From Deltaproteobacteria bacterium (lineage in GTDB: Bacteria > Myxococcota > XYA12-FULL-58-9 > JABJBS01): a stretch of DNA of 59,488 nucleotides. Positions 20,930 through 48,924 of this stretch are shown here, piece by piece. The notes below the pieces were generated by a model. That model did no database searches, had not been told where the DNA came from, and saw only the letters and a list, made by a program, of their open reading frames with translations. Position numbers and translations under genes: made by a program. Location of the stretch: positions 1 to 59,488 of the forward strand of contig JABJBS010000336.1 of assembly GCA_018668695.1 (NCBI GenBank), in the 5' to 3' direction. Position 1 is the first letter of the stretch. Each line of letters starts with the position of its first letter.

Positions 20930-21460
20930 TTACTCGTCTGCTTGTTGGAGAGCCTTGTATTTCTCTACTTCATCTTCGAGTTTTTTAAGCATGCGTTGGT
21001 CAATATCTTGTTTACGCTCGATGAGCTGTTTCATTGCGGATTCTGGATCGTAGGCCTCACTGGGTGCTCTTCCGCGTCTTCTACCTTGAGCGTCAACGAT
21101 GATTTCAAAGTAATCGTCTTGGGTCGCGCAGAGCCCGTCTATACCGCAAGATTGAACGAAGTAGGAATCATTTTCCACGTAGAGTTGCCATTCATTGCCC
21201 CAGGCGTCCAAGCCCGTGTCGAGTCCTTTGGTACTGTCCATGTTGTTGCGGGCGTAGACGACAATGTCCTCGGGGATTCCTTCATCGAATTGAAGATCAA
21301 CGTAGATCTGCATAGCGATGTCTTCCATTTCCGATGTAGTTTTGATGACCTTCGCGACGTTGATCATTTCGGTTCCGAGGTTTCTGATTTCTTCGCTACC
21401 TCCACCAATGGCGACTCCGGCAGCAAGAAGAGGGGTAAGTTTCATGAGCGTACTAATCAT
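20930..21460 (-). CDS. GspG-like pseudopilin C-terminal domain protein without a prepilin leader
   Basis: The 176-residue protein begins with a short hydrophobic segment (KLTPLLAAGVAIGGG) instead of a type IV prepilin leader. Its middle resembles the C-terminal half of major type II pseudopilins: GLDAWGNEWQLYVENDSYF, then SCGIDGLCATQDDYFEI, matching the GspG pattern of D-x-WGN-x-Y followed by S-x-GxDG-x-DD. A charged helical tail (~140-176) follows. It starts inside the stop of the upstream gene (ATGA), so translation is coupled to the cyclic-nucleotide-domain protein. Assembly into a pilus-like fibre is doubtful because the N-terminal helix is missing. Confidence 0.6.
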   Translation of the reverse strand: MISTLMKLTPLLAAGVAIGGGSEEIRNLGTEMINVAKVIKTTSEMEDIAMQIYVDLQFDEGIPEDIVVYARNNMDSTKGLDTGLDAWGNEWQLYVENDSYFVQSCGIDGLCATQDDYFEIIVDAQGRRRGRAPSEAYDPESAMKQLIERKQDIDQRMLKKLEDEVEKYKALQQADE

Positions 21461-23532
21461 GACTTCACCCCGCTTGCTCGCTCTTGCGCTATTTTTTCAA
21501 GCCTAATCCCTGCGAGAAAATCATGCACCATAACGTCTTTGAAGTCTTGCCGGTTAAGGGTGAGCAGAACGCTTTCAGTGGTTGTGGTTACGGTGGCTGT
21601 TCGTGGCACATTTGAAAGCAGCGAAATCTCGCCGAAGAAATCTCCTGAGCCCAAAGCGGCCACGGGTTCATTTTGACCAGCTTGGTTTACTTCGACGGCA
21701 CCGGACTCGATGATAAAGAAGTGGTCTCCTTGTTCGCCCTCCTGCGCGAGAACTTTTCCAGTTGAAACGGTTTGGCGATTGCAGAGTGAGAGAAGTTTAT
21801 TGAGAGAGCATGGTGAGAGCCCTTTGAAGAGCTCGGAGCGCCTTAGGATACTGGTTGAGCGCAGGGTTGTCGTTATTTGTCCTCGGTCAAGATTGGCGTT
21901 TTCTAACGCTTTGAGAAATGCCTCTCGGCCTACCTTGCAAACAGAAGCTGCACCGAGAGCGCGTACCGTAGCATTACGCGGCTCTGATTGAACAAGGGCC
22001 ATTTCACCGAAACTATCGCCTGCATGTAAAGTGGCTACCGTTGTTTCAACGCCACTGGGTGCAGTGTGAATGATTTCAACATCACCCTCGCTTAACATGT
22101 AGAAAGACTCGCCCCAGTCGCCCTCTTTGATAATACTGTCACCGGCCTTAAAGCTAAAAGCCGAAGCCTGATTTGCAAGTTCTTGAATGGCTTCTGAGCT
22201 AAGTTGCACAAAGAGTGGGTTGTTGCTGAGAGCCTCTTGAACTTTCGAGAAATCGGGAGTGAAAGATTTAGGAACCACGGATGGGGTTGGAAGACTCTTT
22301 AGGAGTGCGCCGCCAATTCCTAAAATGAATGTCAGTAAAATCCCGGCGACGGTGAGTGTGACAATAGCAACAAAACCTACGAGTGCGAGACTGTCTACAA
22401 GGCTATGACTTTGCAGTATTGAGCGGGTAGAGGGCAGCAACACTTCAGAGATGAGCCGGGCCCCTAAGACGAAACTAAGGTAAAGCCAAAGCACTGTACC
22501 GAGGCTTTGCGCGATGAGCCGGGCTTCACCATCAAACATATCGCGCTTGGTAAGACCTTTGAGATAGCGGGTGCTGACGTAGCTTCCAGCGTGCTTTCGC
22601 CCATCTCCGGTGTGGTTCATATGGTCTAATAAAAAACCCAGGTCACTTTTTACAACCGGACATGCACAACCGAGAAGAACGCCCAATGAGCCAAAGCAGG
22701 CAAGTTTGAAACCGTGACTGCCAATGCTTGTGCTAAACCAGTCCGAAGTGACCCCTAAGCAGCAAAGCGCGGCAGCCAATGCGGCGCCGGCAAGGCCAGC
22801 AAGAGCTACCGAGCGTTGTCCTTGGATACCGGCTCTAAACGCATTACGTGCATCAATGTGAGGTGCGATAAGAAAAAGTCGAAGCTCGATTCCTCGGGCA
22901 TAGGGAGCAAGTCCGTTACTGGCCAGTGCCCACACGCGGAATATATTGCGTAAGGTAAGCGCAAGTACTCCGCCCATGTAGATTGCAAAGAATCCGGCGA
23001 GGTGGCTCTCACCGAGCTTGATAGGTGGCCCGTCGAAAGTGAGGTCTCCCCAGACCAGTAAGGAGCTTGCCGCCAAGACAGAACTTATTAATACCGAGGC
23101 AAGAGTGCCCGTACCCAGTGGCAGTATTTTGGGCGACTCAGCGGTGGTTGTCTTTTTTGAGCTAAGCGTAACATTGAAAAACAGGTTCAGTAGCTTACGG
23201 CCGAGGCCTTTTGGTTTTCGTGGAGTTTGAAAACCGAAGCGACTGAGCTCTTCATGGCTTTGCTCAAGGCAACCATGTGACGAGAGTTTTTGAATCAGTT
23301 GCAGAAGCGCCCGCGTGGATAAAAGGCGTCCGTCGGAGGAGGCAACGTCAATGATTTGTTCAAGCGATTTTTGACCATCGATGAGTTTGACGAAAGGCTG
23401 CTCTTCAAGAGTGACGTGTTCGAAGGAACCGTTAGGGGATTCAAAGCCCATACCGGTGTTGCCAATTGAGAAGAACTCAGTTTGGCCTGATAGCACTGGG
23501 ATAAACGACTCAACCCGAATTTGTTCCTGCAT
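21457..23532 (-). CDS. Membrane protein with PqqD-like N-domain, degenerate M50 core and two cyclic-nucleotide-binding domains
   Basis: The 691-residue protein has a small N-terminal domain (~10-105) like PqqD/winged-helix modules. A membrane region of several helices (~140-410) and two cNMP-binding domains (~435-550 and ~565-691) follow. Both phosphate-binding cassettes are intact: FGEMALVQSEPRNATV with Glu510/Arg519 and FGEISLLSNVPRTATV with Glu635/Arg644. The membrane part follows the plan of YydH-like M50 peptide metalloproteases. HExxH is absent (ALTLRNIFRVW) and the NPxxxxDGY motif is CPVVKSDLGF (291-300), so it is probably a non-catalytic pseudo-protease. GAGGGAG is a strong ribosome-binding site. 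It is coupled to the pseudopilin-like gene. Confidence 0.75.
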   Translation of the reverse strand: MQEQIRVESFIPVLSGQTEFFSIGNTGMGFESPNGSFEHVTLEEQPFVKLIDGQKSLEQIIDVASSDGRLLSTRALLQLIQKLSSHGCLEQSHEELSRFGFQTPRKPKGLGRKLLNLFFNVTLSSKKTTTAESPKILPLGTGTLASVLISSVLAASSLLVWGDLTFDGPPIKLGESHLAGFFAIYMGGVLALTLRNIFRVWALASNGLAPYARGIELRLFLIAPHIDARNAFRAGIQGQRSVALAGLAGAALAAALCCLGVTSDWFSTSIGSHGFKLACFGSLGVLLGCACPVVKSDLGFLLDHMNHTGDGRKHAGSYVSTRYLKGLTKRDMFDGEARLIAQSLGTVLWLYLSFVLGARLISEVLLPSTRSILQSHSLVDSLALVGFVAIVTLTVAGILLTFILGIGGALLKSLPTPSVVPKSFTPDFSKVQEALSNNPLFVQLSSEAIQELANQASAFSFKAGDSIIKEGDWGESFYMLSEGDVEIIHTAPSGVETTVATLHAGDSFGEMALVQSEPRNATVRALGAASVCKVGREAFLKALENANLDRGQITTTLRSTSILRRSELFKGLSPCSLNKLLSLCNRQTVSTGKVLAQEGEQGDHFFIIESGAVEVNQAGQNEPVAALGSGDFFGEISLLSNVPRTATVTTTTESVLLTLNRQDFKDVMVHDFLAGIRLEKIAQERASGVKS

Positions 23533-23642: not shown

Positions 23643-24902
23643 CTATTCGAAAATATGCCGATCATTACAAAATCTCATGCCACGGGTAGGTGTTGCGTAG
23701 AGGAAGTTGAAGCACATTTCGTCTTCCGTTCCGTCGCCAAAGAAGACGGTTCGTTGAGGGTCAGAATTGTAAAACCCGCAAGTCGTTTCCAGCTGGTCAC
23801 CAGGATAGAGAGTAATGGGCATCTCATAGAAAAGTTGCGCCTCGAATGACCAACCGGTTAACTCAATCAAGTTGATACGTGTTCCGTCGGCTCGCACCAC
23901 ATCGGAACGAAAGCTCATGCCAGTTTCATGCATATGAGGCATACCAGCGAGCAAAGTAATCTCTTCTTTAATCTCGCATACCCCTGTGACCACCATCGAG
24001 GCCTCCGGACTGACAACAATCATATTGGGGCCGGGGACAATCATACCGTACTCGGTCTCATCGGTGCCGGTCGGGCCGTGGTAGATATTGATGCTCGTTT
24101 TATCTTTTACGTTCTCGATACCGGCAGAGTTGTTGTAGTGGATTTGGAAAACATAGCGTTCACCAGGCTCTACGAGAAGACCACCCTCAGGAAACTGAAT
24201 GGCATCTTGACCAGGCGCCCAGCCGTAGAGAAAGTCGGTGTCTCCGGGTACGCCGCTGCATCGAAATGAGCCGTTGTGACGTTTGCTGGGGTCTCGGTAG
24301 AGCACAGCATGATGCAGAACCCGGGTGTCGTCCAATTGCATTTCAAACCGTTTGATAAGTTGAGGCTCGTCAAAAGGGACATCAACAGCCCAGCATTGAT
24401 ATCGGTTGTTCCAGTTTGGGCTGACTTCAAAGTCGTTTGCGCTGATGGTCCAAACGTCGGTTTCAGTGGGGAGATCGCTTGGAGGAAGAAAGACGGGAGC
24501 GTTGGCGGTGAGACCTTCCTGGTAGTCCGGATGCTCCATGCCGCAACTCGACCAAAGAACCATGGTATCAAAATCGTTGTGGCTGGGTGCCCCGAAGGGC
24601 GCAGGTGGCATAGCGCGTGAATTAAGAGATGGCGTGATTTTATCAACCAGTCTCTCTCCAGGCTCGCCGGCTATCATTTCATCGTAATTTAAGAGGCTGA
24701 CGGGTGCACCGTAATCTTGAACCTCGCCGTGACAGGTGCCGCAGTTCTTCTCGAATGCAGGTCGCGCGTGCATCTCAAAGGCATCACGGTCCGGGATGCA
24801 AATGGTCTCTGCCGGTTCAGCGACTTCTTCCGCGCATCCACTCGTAAGTAGATAAAAAAGACTGGATACAAGAACAGGAATAATAAGATCTGAATGTTTC
24901 AT
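23643..24902 (-). CDS. Lipoprotein with cytochrome c motif and PHM-like copper monooxygenase domains
   Basis: The 419-residue precursor has a signal peptide with lipobox LTSGC (Cys23). A c-type heme motif CGTCH lies at 54-58. The rest resembles copper type II ascorbate-dependent monooxygenases (peptidylglycine/dopamine type). The likely CuH ligands are His197-His198 (VLHHAVLYRD) and His255 (QIHYNN). The likely CuM ligands are His323 and His325 (MPHMH) and Met396 (DEMCF). The spacings 198-255 and 325-396 are close to those in PHM (64 and 70 residues), so the site looks competent. The substrate is unknown. Start at 24902 gives a normal lipoprotein signal. Confidence 0.82.
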   Translation of the reverse strand: MKHSDLIIPVLVSSLFYLLTSGCAEEVAEPAETICIPDRDAFEMHARPAFEKNCGTCHGEVQDYGAPVSLLNYDEMIAGEPGERLVDKITPSLNSRAMPPAPFGAPSHNDFDTMVLWSSCGMEHPDYQEGLTANAPVFLPPSDLPTETDVWTISANDFEVSPNWNNRYQCWAVDVPFDEPQLIKRFEMQLDDTRVLHHAVLYRDPSKRHNGSFRCSGVPGDTDFLYGWAPGQDAIQFPEGGLLVEPGERYVFQIHYNNSAGIENVKDKTSINIYHGPTGTDETEYGMIVPGPNMIVVSPEASMVVTGVCEIKEEITLLAGMPHMHETGMSFRSDVVRADGTRINLIELTGWSFEAQLFYEMPITLYPGDQLETTCGFYNSDPQRTVFFGDGTEDEMCFNFLYATPTRGMRFCNDRHIFE

Positions 24903-25001
24903 AGATAGCCCCCGAGCGTCTGAGCCATGGACGCTAGTATAGTGGCCATACATCTGTCTACACGAAGACTACTTACTTTGGTGGGACCAATGACGGGCTG
25001 A

Positions 25002-45942: not shown

Positions 45943-48828
45943 TTAGACCGCGTCGAGAGCGAATCGAGCGTAACGACGAACGTGAGCAGCTTCATCCGTA
46001 AGCAATGGCTCAATCGACTCTTTCCACTCCGGTGTTTTACCGAGCCTTGAAATGGCGACGATTGCTGATTCGCGGCAAACGGCATTTGGGCTGTCTAGCA
46101 AACGCCCAACTGATTTTTCCATATTCTCGAGTTTACTGATGCCTACTAAAATAGCAGCACAGGAGCCCAGCCAGTGATCGGGTCCCTCCAGGAGCTCAAG
46201 AAGCCGGTCGTTGTTGGAGCGAGAAGATAAGCCAAAAGTGTTGTGTCCAATATCGAGTCGGTCTTGAACAGGTCCATCTTCCAGCATGGGTATGATGAAC
46301 TCTTTATCTTCTTTGGTGAGAAGATTATCGAGAACCTCGAGTGCATTGGAGCGCGTGGCTATATGCTGGCTCTCTAAGTTGCGGCTTACCAGTTCCATTG
46401 TGGATGCCTGGTATTTCAGACCCAGCAGGGCCAGCAGCTGGCGAGTAACACTCTTTTGTTTGTCTTTGATCGCATCTTCGACCAGCTGAATATTGGGAAT
46501 CTTTTTAAGGTCTTCGATGGTGAAGAGGAGCCGGTACCAAAGCTTTGCTTCATTGAGGATAGCCTGGTCACTGGCGGCCAATTCAATGGGCATTTCCGGA
46601 CGGTTGGCAACAAGCACCGTTAGGGCTTGGACGACCGCGAGTCGAACATGAATGTTTTCATCTGCAAGATGCTCGGCGAGTAGCTCCGCACTTTCAGGGC
46701 TATCTAGACGAGCCAGAACACGTGCCAGGTGAGCTCTGAGTTCCGGTGGCTGTGTGAGGTCGTCTAAAATTGGGACGAGTTCGTCTTGAACACTTGGTCC
46801 AAATTTGGCCAGTGCTTTTACAGTTGTCATAGCAAGTCGCGGGAATGCGAATTGTTTAACAAGTTCTGGTATGAGCTCTGGGGTTCGGAGGCGACCGGCC
46901 GCATCGATGGCCGCAAGTCTTACGTGTTCTGAGCTGTCATTTAGCAGTGGGACCAACGGTTGGTAGAAGTTCTGAACACCGACCTCTCCAAGGATCCAGG
47001 CCGCGTATTCCCGTGTTTTCAGAGAAGGGCTCGTCAGCATTTTCTTCAGAACTTCCGCACAGGCCAAAACACCGTCGAGGCCGCCATAGCGAATGAGTCC
47101 CGCCACCGCGGAGGCTCGCACTTTTTTATCCCAATCTTGAAGCATTACCTGAATTCGATTTTGGGATTTCTCACGACTCAATGCGCAGTAGCAAAGTACG
47201 GCCGCAGCTCGAACAGGTGGAGAACCATCTTCAAGAAGCGGTGCAATCATATCGACGTGAATGTTGCCGTGGCCTTGTAGGTAATGCAGCGCAGCCATAC
47301 GAACATCTTCGGACGGGTGTTGTAATAAGGCCGTGACCGGCTCGTTGAGGGGTGCTTTGGCTTTAGGGCTGATGGAAGGTAGGAGTTCAAGCGCATGAAG
47401 AACCTGACCCATGCTATCGGAGAGTAACGCACCCTGTAGGGTTTGGATGGTGGCTTCATCCGAGATTTGGAATCCAGCATCTTTGAAATTGAGGCGTCGT
47501 CTTTTTAGGGTTTTCACGAGGCTGATGACATATTCGCGGCGCAGCGCAACCAAAACAGTAATCCATACAACCAGTGTGAGAAGAACGATGTAGCTCATGC
47601 TATTGGCGCTGAGATCTAGCCCAAAAGGAATACCCGTTAAGTTTTTGAATGTTCCAACGAGGATGGAAAGTAAAAGTCCGGCTCCCCCGATGGCGACATA
47701 TTTAAGAACACCATCGATGACCGCTTTGGCTCGCCCACGGGAGTCGGGTGGAAGCGGGAGATAGAGGAGCTGCATCGTTGAATCGGTGACCGTATAGCGC
47801 AGGACGGTCTCAGAGCCTTTAGAAATACTCACGGCCCAGAGCCCCGAAATCATAGCAGGTGCCAATAAGAGACCTATAGAGCCCATGCCCATGGCGATGG
47901 GTAGGAGAATCAGAGCGGGCAATACACCAAAGCGTTCGAGCAGTCTGGCGGTTACGGTGAATTGAATCGAGGCGCCGAGGATACCCGTGTAAAGAAAGAA
48001 CGCTCCGAAGTATTGAGTACGGGCATTCATTTCTGAAATGCTTTCGCCGATGATGACTTTGAATTGGTAGTCAACAAGAGTTGAGACTAGGTAAGTGAGC
48101 ATGACTGCGGAAGCGATGAGGCGAACGTGCTTCGTTTTAAAGATGGCTTGGGGCGAAGCGAGTTGTCGAGCCCGTTTGCTGGTGCCTGGTCGTTTTTGCT
48201 GAGAGGCTTCCAGTTCGGCGCGCGCGTTTTTACCTAAATTGACCACAGCAATAAGGCAAATCACGAGACAACCGCTGATGATAAAGAGAAGGTTCTCCGT
48301 ACCGATTTCGTTTACGTAGCGTTTAACCAGCAGTCCAAAAGCAATGTTGGCCAGTACGCCGCCGCCGCCAATGATTGCAAAGAGGCGTTTGGCTTGCCGG
48401 GCATGAAAGATCTCATTGGTGAATGTCCAAAATTGAACAATCAAAAATGCCCCGAATATTTCGACCCAAATATAAAAGGCCCAGTAAATGGTGTAACTTT
48501 GCTTCTCAAGGGCAGCTCGAAATCCCAAGGTGACTAAGATCAGAAGGACGAGGGTGATGGTGTTGGTTCGGTCCCGCCGAAGAACTCGCTCCACTTTGGC
48601 GTAGCTGTACATGATGACCGACACGCTCATCGCGATGCCGATATAAGTCAGCGGTAGCTGGGCTTTGTAGTTGGGGATTTCCAAAAAGAGGACATCACGG
48701 GTAATTCTAGCCATGATAAACGAGCCAACGGCCATGAAGAGATAAAGAAACGAGAGACCGGTTCTTTTAAGTTCTTCAGGTCGCACGCGAAGTGTATCGT
48801 GCAAAATTTGGTAGAGTGATGATGTCAT
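45943..48828 (-). CDS. NTT/Tlc-like major-facilitator membrane protein fused to HEAT repeats
   Basis: The 961-residue protein has an N-terminal ~430-residue membrane half with about twelve helices. It opens like ATP/ADP translocases of the NTT family (RDVLFLEIPNYKAQLPLTYIG, FWTFTNEIFHARQAKRLFAIIGGG). The C-terminal ~500 residues are HEAT-like helical repeats (for example EHVRLAAIDAAGRL, ENIHVRLAVVQAL, AHVRRYARFAL). Transport of nucleotides is known for obligate intracellular homologues; in free-living bacteria the substrate is unknown. The ATG is preceded by GAGAGATAAG. A GTG four codons upstream is possible. It is divergent from ruvB. Confidence 0.82.
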   Translation of the reverse strand: MTSSLYQILHDTLRVRPEELKRTGLSFLYLFMAVGSFIMARITRDVLFLEIPNYKAQLPLTYIGIAMSVSVIMYSYAKVERVLRRDRTNTITLVLLILVTLGFRAALEKQSYTIYWAFYIWVEIFGAFLIVQFWTFTNEIFHARQAKRLFAIIGGGGVLANIAFGLLVKRYVNEIGTENLLFIISGCLVICLIAVVNLGKNARAELEASQQKRPGTSKRARQLASPQAIFKTKHVRLIASAVMLTYLVSTLVDYQFKVIIGESISEMNARTQYFGAFFLYTGILGASIQFTVTARLLERFGVLPALILLPIAMGMGSIGLLLAPAMISGLWAVSISKGSETVLRYTVTDSTMQLLYLPLPPDSRGRAKAVIDGVLKYVAIGGAGLLLSILVGTFKNLTGIPFGLDLSANSMSYIVLLTLVVWITVLVALRREYVISLVKTLKRRRLNFKDAGFQISDEATIQTLQGALLSDSMGQVLHALELLPSISPKAKAPLNEPVTALLQHPSEDVRMAALHYLQGHGNIHVDMIAPLLEDGSPPVRAAAVLCYCALSREKSQNRIQVMLQDWDKKVRASAVAGLIRYGGLDGVLACAEVLKKMLTSPSLKTREYAAWILGEVGVQNFYQPLVPLLNDSSEHVRLAAIDAAGRLRTPELIPELVKQFAFPRLAMTTVKALAKFGPSVQDELVPILDDLTQPPELRAHLARVLARLDSPESAELLAEHLADENIHVRLAVVQALTVLVANRPEMPIELAASDQAILNEAKLWYRLLFTIEDLKKIPNIQLVEDAIKDKQKSVTRQLLALLGLKYQASTMELVSRNLESQHIATRSNALEVLDNLLTKEDKEFIIPMLEDGPVQDRLDIGHNTFGLSSRSNNDRLLELLEGPDHWLGSCAAILVGISKLENMEKSVGRLLDSPNAVCRESAIVAISRLGKTPEWKESIEPLLTDEAAHVRRYARFALDAV

Positions 48829-48924
48829 CTTATCTCTCACCTATCACTGGCAAACTGCCGCATCAAACGCTGAAACCAGGCTTTTAGGGTCTGAATTGTC
48901 GGTGATCTAGGGTAATGTGTCCTC

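Follow-up and report, generated by a model that had tools for sequence, protein, structure and literature searches.

In daptide biosynthesis, a site-2 protease carries a fused RRE (recognition element of ribosomally synthesized and post-translationally modified peptides, RiPPs) (PMC10036551), and the membrane-bound M50 proteases TglG, TmoG and EpeP act on peptides (PMC10885120). EGY3 has been described as a site-2 pseudoprotease (PMC12389704) and iRhoms as regulatory pseudoproteases (PMC3149277). Here we describe a gene for a 691-aa protein in the window, by which we mean the whole stretch of 59,488 nucleotides that was analyzed (contig JABJBS010000336.1, positions 1 to 59,488, of assembly GCA_018668695.1, a deltaproteobacterium of the phylum Myxococcota). 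Its product combines a predicted RRE, a membrane core related to site-2 proteases and a pair of cyclic nucleotide-binding domains (CNBDs). What is new here is a small gene encoding a GspG-like protein directly after 5 of the 15 members of this protein family. We tentatively favor the reading that an RRE-fused site-2 protease gave rise to the large protein, which would now serve as a non-proteolytic receptor embedded in the membrane and hold a peptide or a pilin-like protein in a manner controlled by cyclic nucleotides.

The window is part of a 5.87-Mb assembly, and its own genome holds one full-length copy of the gene. A sequence-only reading had placed at 21457-23532 a pseudo-M50 membrane protein with a PqqD-like domain in front and two intact CNBDs at the back. 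The coordinates are correct; the strand, which it did not name, is minus, since the plus frame is full of stops and the minus frame is open for 691 aa. The protein architecture proposed there also held, and the co-encoded small gene went unmentioned. Hydropathy analysis gave six hydrophobic clusters (residues about 139-166, 176-198, 239-266, 274-303, 338-366 and 375-416). PF00027 matched the protein twice (E 8.7e-48). Searched alone against Pfam and NCBIfam, the protein had no M50 or PqqD match and only the CNBDs carried weight, so that tests at the family level were needed for the M50 and PqqD parts; both parts were supported. The features are as follows.

21457-23532, minus strand: open reading frame (ORF) of 691 aa, in the order RRE, pseudo-M50 membrane core, CNBD, CNBD (reading frame and homologues)
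23242-23532, minus strand: predicted RRE/PqqD-like winged-helix domain, residues 1-97 (hhalign; model of homologue L136)
22285-23118, minus strand: predicted pseudo-M50 membrane core with six helices, residues about 139-416 (hydropathy; hhalign of the core alone)
22936-22950, minus strand: R195-N-I-F-R199, aligned with H-E-x-x-H of active M50 relatives (profile alignment, conservation)
22642-22662, minus strand: C-P-V-V-K-S-D297, aligned with N-P-x-x-K-x-D-G (conservation, profile alignment)
21883-22224, minus strand: CNBD 1, residues about 437-550 (PF00027, solved relatives)
21964-22011, minus strand: phosphate-binding cassette 1, FGEMALVQSEPRNATV, with E510 and R519 (conservation)
21529-21828, minus strand: CNBD 2, residues about 569-668 (PF00027, solved relatives)
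21589-21636, minus strand: phosphate-binding cassette 2, FGEISLLSNVPRTATV, with E635 and R644 (conservation)
20930-21460, minus strand: small partner gene of 176 aa with a hydrophobic N-terminus, a GspG/T2SSG-like C-terminal motif and no prepilin signal

The survey for homologues covered 195 Myxococcota genomes. A search of 58 genomes with the N-terminal 424 residues gave matches in three, one of them the own genome; a three-row profile reached 11 of the 195 at E 0.001. With a 12-row profile, 13 genomes yielded 14 proteins that were clear matches (all at E 2e-103 or better). Its remaining hits down to E 0.1, in 39 other genomes and at a few extra places in the 13, were all short partial matches (E 1.3e-6 or weaker). 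With a 15th member that was reached via the small gene, the family comprises 15 proteins in 14 of the 195 genomes, 20-30% identical to the window protein and sharing the domain order PqqD-like, membrane core, CNBD, CNBD. Because this order recurs in 13 other genomes, the architecture is more than chance, and we consider both the family and its architecture well supported, the mechanism being inferred. Beyond the phylum, the family was sought in plasmids and in pattern-limited scans of genome contigs: tblastn of the N-terminal half gave no match in plasmids, and a single-protein contig scan gave 13 pattern matches and no confirmed relative.

That a PqqD-like domain stands in front was borne out at the family level. 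Pfam HTH_47 matched 7 of 12 members (best E 0.0011), and hhalign aligned the N-terminal part with that of RRE-M50 proteins of the phylum at Prob 97.2. An AlphaFold model of homologue L136 (residues 1-381; pLDDT 69.4, pTM 0.59) had as its best structural matches leader-bound lasso-peptide B1 proteins (Z 9.3 for 6jx3 over 82 residues, 9.1 for TbiB1, and 9.0; root-mean-square deviation 2.8, 82-85 residues), followed by GdmN, LynD, TigE, the sactipeptide enzyme 5wgg and TruD. Best Z values of 7-8 can be typical for this tool; the RREs TbiB1, 6jx3 and LynD span Z 7.4-9.3, and the RRE matches lie above unrelated ones, which start near Z 6. These data support the assignment of the front as an RRE, predicted to bind peptides, in the window protein by homology.

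The membrane core was compared with active relatives through profiles. NF041824 (daptide intramembrane protease) aligned with residues 20-365 of the family member of genome G013 at E 2e-6, below the model's cut-off, and also retrieved RRE-M50 proteins of the phylum that bear HExxH. Eight among the best of the latter were aligned; this alignment (A6) in turn matches 3b4r, a site-2 protease of solved structure (E 4.6e-6). By hhalign, the family aligned with A6 over 294 columns (Prob 99.0, E 4.4e-18) and the core alone at Prob 95.8 and score 67.1, against a maximum of 17.8 for 40 column shuffles, 11.2 for the reversed profile and at most 17.2 for seven unrelated membrane ORFs. Against single M50 sequences the family core gave Prob 71.8 down to 0.5, and the result therefore depends on profiles. 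For six family subsets, the whole N-terminal half reached Prob 93.2-99.0, with Arg on the first histidine in all six, and the core only reached Prob 22.7-95.7 (scores 31.9-66.2; null maxima 13.9-17.7, 25 shuffles each). The YydH-like M50 plan read from the window sequence is upheld by these comparisons, which support homology of the core to YydH/MpaP-type site-2 proteases with a fused RRE.

It is improbable, in our judgment, that the membrane part is unrelated to M50 and merely resembles it. That reading would account for the lack of a Pfam M50 match and of an M50 fold among the structural matches listed, but the larger subsets scored 43-67 with the core only versus null maxima of 14-18, and RELAK (G013) and RQATH (G169) stand as intermediates in the column of the zinc motif.

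Among the RRE-M50 proteins of the phylum, two other forms were seen. One (L110, 1189-2460, minus strand, genome G097) keeps HEMAH and has VRTDFYYAL for NPxxxxDGYY, and is possibly a half-degenerate relative. Those at L102 and L103 (genomes G011 and G043) are extended by a long C-terminal part that by eye is like an HlyD-type adaptor.

The zinc site is lost in register. No HExxH or H...H motif occurs in the membrane part of the window protein, and HExxH was found in the N-terminal half of none of the 15 family proteins. The position of the first histidine is R in 14 members and K in one; at that of the glutamate, N, F, E, G, Q, A, R and D all occur; that of the second histidine is R, K or Q, or H in a single member, so that the histidines are typically replaced by R-x-x-x-[R/K/Q]. 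At the third-ligand motif, Pro is present in 15/15 and Asp in 4/15 (window protein included), with S, A or L in the other 11. The segment CPVVKSDLGFLLDH (residues 291-304), which had been put at the place of NPxxxxDG, agrees with this in register, in its Pro and in Asp297; the window protein has no N-P or D-G. For comparison, 60 M50 loci were inspected, 30 of them the best PF02163 hits (full-length and, in our own reading, of RseP-like size) and the rest from the NF041824 search: an ORF with HExxH ran across the middle in 60/60, and a CNBD cassette lay in that ORF in 0/60. The description of the protein as a catalytically dead protease with intact CNBDs, already suggested by the sequence-only reading, is thus supported at the level of sequence.

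A core that is still an enzyme, with Arg or Lys plus Asp standing in for the zinc ligands, would explain why 14 of 15 members have the Arg of R195, the remaining one having K, and why four retain the equivalent of Asp297. We consider it unlikely, as the glutamate position is variable, the second histidine survives in 1/15, Asp297 is S, A or L in 11/15, and the core evolves faster than the domains adjoining it. This last point comes from dN/dS values calculated by a simple counting method on five pairs of closely related members, which were 0.07-0.26 for the RRE, 0.38-0.81 for the membrane core and 0.16-0.43 for the CNBDs. By these values the RRE and the CNBDs are under stronger constraint than the core, as would suit a scaffold, though membrane helices evolve fast anyway. 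The loss of the zinc site and a core dN/dS of up to 0.81 in one pair could also be taken for a decaying pseudogene of an M50 protease. Decay is disfavored by the conservation of the family, with 15 open frames in 14 genomes, domain order kept and the RRE under the low ratios given above, and because of the dN/dS of the five close pairs we regard the family genes as not decaying, which leaves this explanation with almost no credit.

Both CNBDs have intact Glu/Arg cassettes, as had been read from the window (E510/R519 and E635/R644), and across the family all 30 domains have the cassette Arg and 29 have the Glu (Asp in domain 1 of G002). Among solved structures, the CNBD pair is closest to those of cGMP-dependent protein kinases (E 4e-44), with PKA regulatory subunits next (E about 1e-25). 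In the own genome, 40 places match class III cyclases, all above cut-off and none on the window's contig; the 31 other places matched by the query all fall in its C-terminal half, from residue 355, and are essentially CNBDs. By these matches, the genome holds a large cyclic-nucleotide network. PADLOC models of Pycsar effectors also match the CNBDs (E 2.8e-25), as would suit an anti-phage effector through which a cyclic nucleotide would open or damage the membrane. These matches are limited to the CNBDs, however, none of the 40 cyclase places lies beside the gene or elsewhere on the contig, and the neighbors examined (10 window genes, Pfam) are metabolic and transport genes; we find this explanation very improbable. 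The Pycsar and pseudogene readings were set aside on cyclase placement, neighbors, CNBD-only matches and dN/dS.

The small ORF at 20930-21460 begins at the stop region of the 691-aa ORF, with a 4-base ATGA overlap. In the window, G002, G013 and G052 such a gene lies directly behind the large gene, overlapping it or at most 12 bases off. A profile of these four small proteins, searched over the 195 genomes, gave one further strong match, in G169 (E 1.9e-13); the next (E 4.1e-5), like most others, covered the generic C-terminal motif only. The ORF in front of the G169 match, with a 4-base overlap, is a divergent family member that the family profile had missed. The pairing thus predicted a new member, because the G169 pair surfaced from the small gene alone. 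In total, the small gene is next to 5 of the 15 members, in five different genera (numbered g1, g3, g13, g48 and g75 here).

At the N-terminus the small proteins are hydrophobic and, in most cases, rich in glycine; a stretch that is helix-like by eye follows, and then a C-terminal GspG motif (D-x-W-G-x-x-Y ... S-x-G-x-D ... D-D), which matches solved GspG at E 0.001. With E allowed up to 10, PF08334 was found in three of the four (0.0014 at best; under cut-off in the two shown singly). A prepilin peptidase signal was present in none of six small downstream proteins examined. Behind the family gene of G181, with a 4-base overlap, lies an ORF of 151 aa with a similar hydrophobic start (L029, 7886-8341, plus strand). 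It had no Pfam match at E up to 1 and none listed for the small-gene profile; it was left out of the five pairs and is possibly a replaced partner.

The sequences show how the domains are ordered, that the zinc site has been lost in register, that the CNBD cassettes are intact and that a GspG-like gene is co-encoded in a minority branch; from these observations a receptor mechanism can be proposed. With six helices, both protein ends would be cytosolic. The RRE and the former protease cleft would grip a peptide or the hydrophobic segment at the N-terminus of a partner that crosses the membrane once, which would be the pilin-like protein where the small gene is present, and with the zinc site gone the held partner would escape cutting. 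Binding of cAMP or cGMP to the cytosolic, PKA-R-like CNBD pair might then decide whether the complex retains its partner or lets go of it. A more specific form, which is possible but which we consider doubtful, is a second-messenger-gated substrate trap, in which basic residues replace the zinc site and the co-encoded single-pass pilin-like protein is captured uncut and freed on cyclic-nucleotide binding. If true, this would be a bacterial counterpart of an iRhom with a built-in cyclic-nucleotide switch.

Several points weigh against the receptor reading. The small gene is missing in 10 of the 15 members (those of families f13 and f28, apart from G169), a count that includes G181 with its different small overlapping ORF; absence at G102 and G105 means that no profile match was listed there. 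A small-gene partner of all members is thereby excluded. No RiPP gene was found by Pfam among the 10 window genes. The core signal was near nil for the pair P0001 and G002 alone (Prob 3.2), and for the pair G169 and G013 it was Prob 22.7 with the first histidine unaligned. AlphaFold on window residues 1-424 with eight distant relatives gave a poor model (pLDDT 48.6, pTM 0.38) that was unused for fold searches, and no M50 protein was among the matches listed by Foldseek and VIA-align for the L136 model (pLDDT 69.4). A profile searched against solved structures gave weak RRE matches (PaaA, LynD) and unrelated ones only. CNBD-like domains can bind other ligands: that of HetC binds ppGpp and was not stabilized by cAMP (PMC10986499). 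Ligand, partner and peptide all remain putative.

The same protein could instead be an accessory subunit, decoy or regulatory, that is controlled by cyclic nucleotides and belongs to a machine for peptide export or to an active membrane protease whose gene lies elsewhere, in the way that iRhoms act on rhomboid substrates; the small gene would then be incidental. This is conceivable, although we doubt it. An RRE and a CNBD are each tied to peptide processing or export elsewhere, in MpaP (PMC10036551) and HetC (PMC10986499), iRhom pseudoproteases regulate the substrates of their active relatives (PMC3149277), and the ten members without a pilin-like neighbor fit this explanation. On the other hand, the search for an active M50 of the YydH/MpaP type in the own genome (G000) came back empty, with no NF041824 match and, for PF02163, one full and one partial match, and members from five different genera have the gene pair.

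The remaining surroundings of the gene were also inspected. The same-strand gene upstream ends 110 bases before the 691-aa ORF. A Copper type II ascorbate-dependent monooxygenase-like protein is encoded upstream of the 691-aa gene at 23643-24953 (minus strand), and at 45943-48840 (minus strand) lies a gene for a 965-aa protein in which a TLC-type ATP/ADP transporter domain (PF03219, E 6.7e-20) is joined to HEAT repeats. The promoter scan gave one promoter-like site, on the opposite strand, versus 2.5 expected by chance, and five terminator-like sites were counted versus 3.9 expected; neither gave anything usable.

Pseudoproteases are a recognized route by which enzymes become regulators. If the receptor reading is true, a large cyclic-nucleotide network (40 cyclase places) would be linked to the membrane handling of a peptide or pilin-like protein, and the gene pair makes this testable. 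In the portions of the literature available, no published description was found of an RRE joined to a dead site-2 core and tandem CNBDs, with a pilin-like neighbor in one branch, or of a bacterial dead site-2 protease with regulatory input.

Judged by sequence, each domain belongs to a known kind, and their conserved combination is real. MpaP, the daptide intramembrane protease modeled by NF041824, likewise has an RRE before a site-2 protease-type core, and the G013 member matches this model over the residues given above; MpaP-type relatives keep HExxH, whereas the dead family has none, carries two CNBDs and, at the window gene, has no RiPP cluster around it. The YydH/EpeP-type proteases (we take EpeP to be YydH; EpeP is named in the review PMC10885120) belong to the same M50 branch by the profile comparison with the eight phylum relatives, but the family lacks their zinc site and has two CNBDs added. 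EGY3 of plant chloroplasts is also a site-2 protease homologue without HExxH, compared here by description and not by sequence, and no RRE or CNBDs are mentioned for it in the available text (PMC12389704). The small partner shares its C-terminal region with solved GspG, the major pseudopilin, but the prepilin cleavage motif was seen in 0/6 small downstream proteins. The model cyc_nuc_ocin (TIGR03896, bacteriocin-type transport-associated), whose NCBI name implies peptide transport, matches the CNBDs, although at 67.5 bits versus a cut-off of 161.05 and over the CNBD part only. With the PKA regulatory subunit and PKG the family shares tandem CNBDs with FGExxL...PRxATV cassettes; here, however, the CNBDs hang on a membrane core and not on or beside a kinase.

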